Below, piece after piece: positions 17,258 through 20,300 of a DNA stretch of 64,000 bases. Position 1 is the first letter of the stretch, and each line of letters opens with the position of its first letter. The notes under the pieces were generated by a model. That model saw nothing but the letters and a program-made list of their open reading frames with translations, searched no databases and was not told where the DNA came from. The translations under genes and the position numbers were made by a program. The stretch is from Liolophura sinensis (Eukaryota; Mollusca; Polyplacophora; Chitonida; Chitonidae). Location of the stretch: assembly GCF_032854445.1 (NCBI RefSeq), contig NC_088303.1, forward strand, positions 2,673,501 to 2,737,500, read 5' to 3'.

Positions 17258-17372
17258 ATGGTTGTGGCTATAGGGTTTGAAGGCAGTGCCAACAAACTGG
17301 GGATAGGCATAGTGAAGGATGGTGTGGTATTATCTAACCCTCGTCACACCTACATTACCCCACCTGGGGAAG
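17258..17372 (+). CDS. OSGEP: OSGEP coding exon 1
   Basis: Encodes [19 protein letters not shown] through TYITPPGE and the first base of the next Gly codon (phase 1). Donor GAAG|GTGAGT. This copy, unlike the repeats after it, keeps the conserved Gly-Phe-Glu-Gly-Ser-Ala, so it is taken as the real exon. Confidence 0.95.
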
Positions 17373-20300
17373 GTGAGTGACAATGGTTATGACTGTAGGG
17401 TGTGAGGGTAGTGCCAAGAAGCTGGGGATAGGCATAGTAAAGGATGGTGTGGTATTATCTAACCCTCGTCACACCTACATTACCCCACGTGGGGAAGGTG
17501 AGTGACAATGGTTGAGACTGTAGGGTGTGAGGGTAGAACCAACAAGCCGGGGATAGGCATAGTGAAGGATGGTGTGGTATTATCTAACCCTCGTCACACC
17601 TACATTACCCCACCTGGGGAAGGTAAGTGACAATGGTTGTGACTGTAGGGTGTGAGGGTAGTGCCAACAAGCTGGGGATAGGCATAGTAAAGGATGGTGT
17701 GGTATTATCTAACCCTCGTCACACCTACATTACCCCACGTGGGGAAGGTGAGTGACAATGGTTGAGACTGTAGGGGTGTAAGGGTAGTGCCAACAAGCTG
17801 GTGATAGCATAGTGAAGGATGTGTGGTATTATCTAACCCTTGTCACACCTACATTACTCCACCTGGGGAAGGTGAGTGACAATGGTTATGACTGTAGGGT
17901 GTGAGGGTAGTGCCAACAAACTGGTGATAGGCATAGTGAAGGATGGTGTGGTATTATCTAACCCTCGTCACACCTACATTACCCCACGTGGGGAAGGTGA
18001 GTGACAATGGTTGTGACTGTAGGGTGTGAGGGTAGTGCCAACAAACTGGTGATAGGCATAGTGAAGGATGGTGTGGTATTATCTAACCCTCGTCACACCT
18101 ACATTACCCCACGTGGGGAAGGTGAGTGACAATGGTTGTGACTGTAGGGTGTGAGGGTAGAACCAACAAGCTGGTGATAGGCATAGTGAAGGATGGTGTG
18201 GTATTATCTAACCCTCGTCACACCTACATTACCCCACGTGGGGAGGGTGAGTGACAATGGTTGAGACTGTAGGGTGTGAGGGTAGTGCCAAGAAGCTGGG
18301 GATAGGCATAGTGAAGGATGGTGTGGTATTATCTAACCCTCGTCACACCTACATTACCCCACGTGGGGAGGGTGAGTGACAATGGTTGAGACTGTAGAGT
18401 GTGAGGGTAGTGCCAACAAGCTGGTGATAGGCATAGTGAAGGATGGTGTGGTATTATCTAACCCTCGTCACACCTACATTACCCCACCTGTGATAGGTGA
18501 GTGACAATGGTTATGACTGTAGGGTGTGAGGGTAGTGCCAACAAACTGGTGATGGGCATAGTGAAGGATGGTGTGGTATTATCTAACCCTCGTCACACCT
18601 ACATTACCCCACCTGGGGAAGGTGAGTGACAATGGTTGTTGACTGTAGGGTGTGAGGGTAGTGCCAACAAAACTGGTGATAGGCATAGTGAAGGATGGTG
18701 TGGTATTATCTAACCCTCGTCACACCTACATTACCCCACCTGTGATAGGTGAGTGACACTGGTTATGACTACAGGGTGTGAGGGTAGTGCGAACAAGCTG
18801 GGGATAGGCATAGTGAAGGATGGTGTGGTATTATCTAACCCTCGTCACACCTACATTACCCCACCTGGGGAAGGTGAGTGACAATGGTTGTGACTGTAGG
18901 GTGTGAGGGTAGTGCCAACAAGCCGGGGATAGGCATAATGAAGGATGGTGTGTTATTATCTAACCCTCGTCACACCTACATTACCCCACCTGGGGAAGGT
19001 GAGTGACAATGGTTGTGACTGTAGGGTGTGAGGGTAGTGCCAACAAGCTGGGGATAGGCATAGTAAAGGATGGTGTGGTATTATCTAACCCTCGTCACAC
19101 CTACATTACCCGACCTGTGATAGGTGAGTGACAATGGTTATGACTACAGGGTGTGAGGGTAGTGCCAACAAGCTGGGGACAGGCATAGTGAAGGATGGTG
19201 TGGTATTATCTAACCCTCGTCACACCTACATTACCCGACCTGTGATAGGTGAGTGACAATGGTTGTGACTATAGGGTGTGAGGGTAGTGCCAAGAAGCTG
19301 GGGATAGCAATATTGAAGGATGGTGTGGTATTATCTAACCCTCGTCACACCTACATTACTCCACCTGGGGAAGGTGAGTGACAGTGGTTGAGACTGTAGG
19401 GCGTGAGGGTAGTGCCAACAAGCTGGGGATAGGCATAGTGAAGGATGGTGTGGTATTATCTAACCCTCGTCACACCTACATTACTCCACCTGTGATAGGT
19501 GAGTGACAATGGTTATGACTGTAGGGTGTGAGGGTAGTGCCAACAAGCTGAGTATTCACCAGCACCTCCATGTAGAACTGCTGTGAACGAGGAATCTGCT
19601 GGAGTTACCAGCTTTGCGAGTGAATTCTGAAGGAGTGAATTCTTTAGGTGCTAGTAAATGATGAGTGGGGCTAAGAGTATCGGGGCATCTTGATGTTATT
19701 GTAAAACAGCAGTGGGAAACTTTTATGTACAAACTGGTAGCGTATAACTGATTGAAGAGAACATACATCAGTTCAGCTTGAACCCGAGGCACCATTACAT
19801 CATTGGGATGCGGGCCTTAGCCATGGAAGTTTGCCAATGATTTCTCAAGGGTTTCAGATTTAATCTAACCATTCCTGTTGAAAATTGGTATAAATGAAAA
19901 ATCTCAAATGTATACATAGAACATCTATAAAATAAGTAAATAAACAGAGTGAGTGAAGAATTTGAGGCATATGGATGATTTGTTTGCATAGGCTTTTTGC
20001 CCCGTGACACAGCCAACCATCACCGTCAGCATGCCCTGAGCATCCTGAGACAGGCGCTAACCGAGGCCAACATTACCCCACAGGACATAGATGTGGTTTG
20101 TTACACTAAAGGTAGGAACACGTATATGTAGTTTTGTTACACTAAAGGTAGGAACACTTATACTTAGTTTTGTAACACTAAATGTAGGAACACTTACACT
20201 TAGCATCCTGAGACAGGTGCTAACTGAGGCCAACATTACCCCACAGGACATAGATGTGGTTTGTAACACTAAATGTAGGAACACTTACACTTAGTTTTGT

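Follow-up and report, generated by a model that had tools for sequence, protein, structure and literature searches.

An Exon-Derived Minisatellite in Intron 1 of OSGEP and Further Arrays over Exon/Intron Boundaries in the Chiton Liolophura sinensis

The stretch of 64,000 nucleotides analyzed here from the genome of the chiton Liolophura sinensis (contig NC_088303.1, positions 2,673,501 to 2,737,500 of the forward strand; referred to as the window) contains OSGEP, a conserved gene for tRNA modification, whose first coding exon is followed, inside its own intron, by 17 full copies of the exon with its 5' splice site and a 48-bp partial copy. With a probability of roughly 0.87, this array represents a "mirage," a minisatellite produced by the tandem duplication of DNA spanning an exon/intron boundary, the copies of which leave with the intron, are tolerated, and drift. 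Arrays over the boundaries of exons 2 and 3 in the same gene go beyond the observation made in the initial annotation of this DNA. The species name used by the authors of the assembly has been corrected from Liolophura japonica to L. sinensis (PMC12441733). The features are compiled in Table 1.

Tandem Repeats Finder (TRF) delimits the exon-1 array at positions 17252 to 19550, with a period of 125, 18.4 copies, 93% matches, and a score of 3941. Splitting at the motif GTGACA yields 19 unit starts, which belong to the real-exon unit, 17 full units, and the partial unit, and both methods confirm the copy number given in the initial annotation. The full units measure 124, 125, or 127 bp. A unit opens with the 6-bp leader GTGACA, continues with the coding exon (115 bp), and closes after 4 bp of intron, with the GT of the next unit completing the donor GTGAGT. 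The 5' splice site ascribed to each full copy is indeed present, as GT is kept in all 18 complete units (GTGAGT in 17 and GTAAGT in 1). The description of most copies as open in frame holds insofar as ATG and an open frame to the donor are kept, but the exact figure is 13 of 17: the frame is broken in copies 5 and 12, and copies 13 and 18 begin with CTG and GTG, respectively. A search of the whole genome of the species (609,464,459 bases in 632 contigs) with exon-1 DNA shows 18 matches among the best candidates scored, all of them in C9:2690758-2693006. Judged by its length and copy number, the array plainly exceeds chance.

The assignment to OSGEP and the position of the array in intron 1 are borne out by a phmmer search and a model of 12 coding exons. 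Exons were located by tblastn with a human OSGEP sequence as bait, and their boundaries were fitted by eye. The 335-amino-acid product shows 78.1% identity to this bait over 334 residues, and its first 264 residues retrieve 6gwj_K as the top chain (E value of 2.3e-144). Of 9 matches to the TsaD family, which lie at two places only in the genome, 3 belong to OSGEP on contig C9 and 6 to a second gene on contig C11, presumably OSGEPL1. The two 3.1-kb loci of this second gene show three dispersed self-matches and no array with a period above 1.

The copies are 93.7% identical to one another on average, with a range of 89.4 to 99.2%. Four columns differ between the real exon and all 17 copies, and two further columns do so in 14 and 13 of the 17 copies; the diagnostic variant reads TTTGAAGGC in the real exon and TGTGAGGGT in the copies. 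The resulting change from Phe to Cys is derived, with the real exon retaining the Phe of human OSGEP. Differences common to all 17 copies and missing from the real exon fit the proposal of the initial annotation that the array grew from a single mutated copy. With insertions left out, variable sites among the copies are spread evenly over codon positions 1, 2, and 3 (10 of 39, 11 of 38, and 9 of 38, respectively), and the variants comprise 26 nonsynonymous, 6 synonymous, and 0 stop changes, compared to 22.6, 8.9, and 0.6 expected without selection. Selection on the protein encoded by the copies is therefore not visible, given the lack of codon position bias and the 26 nonsynonymous changes among 32 variants (22.6 expected).

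The structural traits of mirages are found in OSGEP. The repeat unit spans an exon/intron boundary in the exon-1 array and, according to junction probes, where exons 2 and 3 end; many units keep a splice signal in the exon-1 array, intron 2, and intron 3; and the four columns that separate the real exon from every copy show an edge unit left out of the turnover of the cluster. The initial duplication would have started 6 bp before the ATG and reached 4 bp into intron 1; the resulting copy would have mutated and then multiplied through unequal exchange or replication slippage. Located at the 5' edge and under selection, the real exon would have remained outside most of this homogenization. As the real exon forms the first unit, the extra copies would all fall into the intron and be excised upon splicing of the first donor to exon 2, leaving the array tolerated and free to drift. 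Exons 2 and 3 may have undergone similar events at their ends, and arrays over donors probably persist in general since their extra copies land in the intron. A lack of function of the exon-1 array is proposed together with this duplication mechanism and with splicing from the first donor. The microhomology GTGACA, put forward in the initial annotation, is a possible origin of the first duplication. It precedes every start (19 of 19 units) and follows the fourth intron base in every complete unit (18 of 18). At its right edge (19550), the array breaks off in the middle of an exon copy, which means that the original intron bases after the real donor are lost, and the GTGACA behind the donor might be no more than a duplicate of the leader.

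The second boundary array repeats the end of exon 2 and its donor, GTAGGAAC. The real donor lies at 20112, and four copies at 20148, 20184, 20275, and 20311 keep GTAGGAAC, two of them preceded by T instead of G. A junction probe finds the exon-2 end with its donor repeated at 20120 to 20319, and the final ∼75 bp of exon 2 recur nested in the array at 20199 to 20273. In the third array, exact copies of the exon-3 donor ATATCCTTT are found at 21392, 21546, 21700, 21854, and 21973. The plus strand of the window contains ATATCCTTT exactly six times, all in intron 3, as the real donor and the five array copies, and the minus strand of the window contains none. Intron 3 follows the U12-type AT-AC consensus, with ATATCCTTT at its 5' end and a TTAAC branch motif near the terminal AC, and its predicted splicing keeps the frame: GGAC/ATATCCTTT and ACTTAACCTTGAACAC/ACATAG (slashes mark the boundaries) join to encode NHCIGHIEMG. 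The junction probes were built on provisional exon boundaries, with E values of up to 0.01. None of the 11 acceptor probes or of the 8 donor probes for exons 4 to 11 matched anything but itself, apart from one 19-bp match of the exon-10 probe. The boundaries with arrays, at the ends of exons 1, 2, and 3, are neighbors.

Table 1. Features of OSGEP and its arrays, in positions of the window (slash, exon/intron boundary)
Feature	Position	Strand	Basis
OSGEP coding region, 12 coding exons, 335 amino acids	17258..34404	+	tblastn, boundary fitting by eye, phmmer
Pyrimidine-rich tract ending in CAGCAG, 3'-splice-site-like, just 5' of exon 1	17200..17229	+	By eye, unscored
Real first coding exon, array unit 1	17258..17372	+	Unit splitting, tblastn, gene model
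Real exon-1 5' splice site, AAG/GTGAGT	17373..17378	+	Unit alignment, splice joins
Intron 1, GT-AG, phase 1	17373..19991	+	Gene model
Array in intron 1, 17 full copies of exon 1 with donor (period of 125) and a 48-bp partial copy	17377..19550	+	TRF, unit splitting
Exon 2	19992..20111	+	tblastn, gene model
Second boundary array, 36-bp units, exon-2 end with donor	20097..20338	+	TRF, junction probes
Exon 3, ending in GGAC	21084..21185	+	Gene model
Intron 3, AT-AC, U12-type signals ATATCCTTT ... ACTTAACCTTGAACAC	21186..24160	+	Motif search, gene model
Third boundary array, degenerate copies of exon-3 end with donor	21221..22058	+	Junction probes
54-bp minisatellite in intron 3, from dispersed-repeat tail, not an exon array	22140..23244	+	TRF, motif search

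Several observations weigh against a purely drifting array. The variation is uneven along the unit, and a core of 45 columns (unit columns 62 to 106) holds just 3 of the 31 variable columns, with a permutation p value of 0.008, or 0.0012 with the fixed differences counted. Such a low-variation core is not expected from neutral change occurring at a uniform rate and could reflect exchange with the real exon or constraint. Furthermore, 15 of 17 copies are without insertions or deletions and GT is kept throughout; at a divergence of ∼6%, intact frames and donors are weak evidence for use of the copies. The normal splicing of OSGEP assumed in the mirage reading is likewise a prediction from the DNA.

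Use of a copy donor would have a uniform consequence. In transcripts modeled from 17228, to which an upstream exon could add other ATGs, splicing from any copy donor to exon 2 leaves the first ATG with an open reading frame (ORF) of 40 codons for all 17 copies, which stops at a TGA within GTGAGTGA. The joins between copies and exon 2 were tabulated with an earlier gene model in which the boundary of exon 10 was one base off; the 40-codon results are independent of exon 10. A pyrimidine tract ending in CAGCAG lies ∼28 bp before the ATG of the real exon and hints at an upstream exon in the 5' untranslated region. By eye, this tract is missing from the copies, and no 3' splice site is evident in the array unit, which begins 6 bp before the ATG. 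Lacking the tract, the copies would probably not be recognized as exons and included by splicing.

The array might instead act as a bank of decoy or poison donors, in which the 17 extra donors are sometimes used and give rise to nonproductive leaders, each with the 40-codon ORF and followed by decay, by which OSGEP is lowered or tuned. This explanation is improbable. The copy donors look by eye as strong as the real donor, every transcript spliced from one would stop early at GTGAGTGA, and the low-variation core is present in the array unit; against this, the first donor alone lies near the upstream 3'-splice-site-like tract, and exon definition would favor it. It is also unlikely that the 17 copies work as a bank of decoy or alternative donors in this essential KEOPS gene, with leaders of stacked 40-codon ORFs damping OSGEP output in proportion to the length of the array. 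If they did, copy number would be a dial for expression and the low-variation core the constrained part of the unit.

The initial annotation considered the copies as potential alternative first coding exons, giving OSGEP variants with Gly-Cys-Glu-Gly at the N terminus, and this suggestion has become very doubtful. The 13 of 17 copies that keep both ATG and an open frame do read through into the remainder of the gene when joined to exon 2. However, a copy could serve as the translation start only with a transcription start inside the array or with reinitiation by the ribosome, in the latter case just after the TGA. The lack of an evident 3' splice site, the 40-codon ORF produced by all 17 copies, the loss of the Phe common to the real exon and human OSGEP, and the absence of any codon position bias, with positions 1 and 2 varying as often as position 3, all argue against such exons.

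That the array was inflated or invented by the assembler is the least credible explanation: the coverage of the assembly is 14x and the heterozygosity 1.24%, and contig C99 of the same assembly contains a repeated mitochondrial genome, but HiFi reads have a mean length of 8,347 bp, more than the 2.3 kb of the array (PMC11068029), the 17 copies differ individually, and the genome search showed no second locus among the best candidates scored. The seven cox1 matches of contig C99 lie ∼15.5 kb apart, and the contig is a tandem mitochondrial concatemer, probably an assembly artifact. Its gene order, with genes other than cox1 assigned by eye, agrees with the ancestral molluscan arrangement. A lancelet origin of the DNA, considered in view of the amphioxus mirages, is rejected; a genome search for the GFP family was without a match, which is weak evidence, as the control gave no signal either.

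The nearest known counterparts of the OSGEP arrays are found in amphioxus. The first paper on mirages is reportedly that of Canestro et al. from 2002. Tandem repeats over exon/intron boundaries have been described under this name for the amphioxus Adh3 and globin genes, for which the data suggest regular splicing and, at Adh3, somatic instability is also reported (PMC3087553); PGBD5 and TnC are further amphioxus mirage genes (PMC3902484). Both sources describe minisatellite-like boundary repeats in Adh3, BflGb6, BflGb9, PGBD5, and TnC that resemble those of OSGEP, with the splice signal kept in many units and edge units left unhomogenized, and give unit lengths from 10 to 72 bp (Adh3) up to 150 to 160 bp (BflGb6) (PMC3087553 and PMC3902484). 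OSGEP differs from these genes in its mollusc host, in a unit that contains a whole coding exon with start codon, in its 17 full extra copies compared to 3 or 6 units in BflGb6, and in the involvement of three neighboring boundaries in one gene, one of them with an AT-AC U12-type donor. The initial annotation called the array unusual, which is fair for OSGEP, but the kind is already known from amphioxus. The chiton lies outside the cephalochordates, from which the named reports originate; in our view, this taxon denotes where mirages have been seen and is not part of their structural definition.

Genes in human segmental duplications also show minisatellite-type boundary repeats that alter the length of introns or exons. 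There, the repeats occur in recent paralogs and are tied to new introns and to alternative transcripts (PMC2812944), whereas OSGEP is conserved and was found at one place. In the metallothionein gene of an earthworm (clone Lr6F14), exon 4 shows duplications and inversions, and the minisatellite of this gene is a repetitive intron region without an exon array. Mutually exclusive or alternative first exons form a general class that shares tandem copies of one exon with OSGEP; unlike members of this class, the OSGEP copies bear no evident 3' splice site and show no trace of selection for the encoded protein.

Searches of a literature collection without most subscription papers yielded no report of a mirage outside amphioxus. 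As far as the papers found show, the mollusc host, the whole exon with start codon, the array of a U12-type donor, and the three neighboring boundaries are new, and boundary-spanning minisatellites are extended from amphioxus to a mollusc. Such minisatellites can thus include an entire exon with its start codon as well as a U12-type donor. OSGEP offers a natural test of how the spliceosome chooses one donor among 18 near-identical ones and how the minor spliceosome chooses among six. Boundary arrays have also been proposed as raw material for intron gain (PMC3087553).

Tandem arrays are frequent in this genome. The window contains 20 of them, covering 9,435 of 64,000 bases, and 18 random 10-kb stretches contain 41, covering 16,764 of 180,000 bases. 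Given this frequency and one array derived from a dispersed-repeat tail, the 54-bp minisatellite of intron 3, array formation is not special to exons and also proceeds from pieces of dispersed repeats. The tail (GAGTACGGCGTAAAACACCAATC, with up to 3 mismatches) is found at 22 more sites outside the arrays of the window, among others in the window itself and in 9 of the 18 random stretches; it presumably represents the tail of a short interspersed element (SINE). With arrays occupying some 39% of the OSGEP span, position alone makes it unremarkable that 3 of its 11 donors fall within them. The motif AGGTRAG occurs in 3 of the 20 array units of the window, compared to 1 of 41 in the random stretches, and its pooled density is 1.16/kb in array units versus 0.21/kb outside. 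Four of the five pooled motifs come from the window itself, the exon-1 array included, and neither a genome-wide link between donors and arrays nor a high frequency of mirages in this genome is claimed.

Searches of the same genome by protein family show 15 matches to RNA_pol_Rpb2_6 without tandem sets and 81 matches to Myosin_head, from the best 65 of 213 candidates, without arrays as judged by eye. Such searches are blind to arrays of short exons, as the TsaD search missed the exon-1 array of OSGEP. Two adjacent myosin-head matches in C1:26642195-26643386 (at 26642195 and 26643291) correspond to the same stretch of the domain and are perhaps mutually exclusive exons.

Other features of the window include an array in OSGEP intron 8 (31602 to 32120), the unit of which holds a strong donor-like CAG/GTGAGT and is not matched by the exon-8 donor probe. 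A 52-bp minisatellite at 15258 to 16132 has a unit resembling the A box of a tRNA-derived SINE head, and its motif (up to 2 mismatches) occurs at 8 sites, all in arrays of the window and nowhere else in the sequences searched. Rfam and tRNA scans gave no matches, and Pfam searches with 99 and 46 of the 263 ORFs of the window gave one match, to DUF1553, which fell below its cutoff in another Pfam run. Two long single ORFs with F-box domains lie 5' of OSGEP, at 1763 to 2962 on the minus strand and at 6165 to 7403 on the plus strand.
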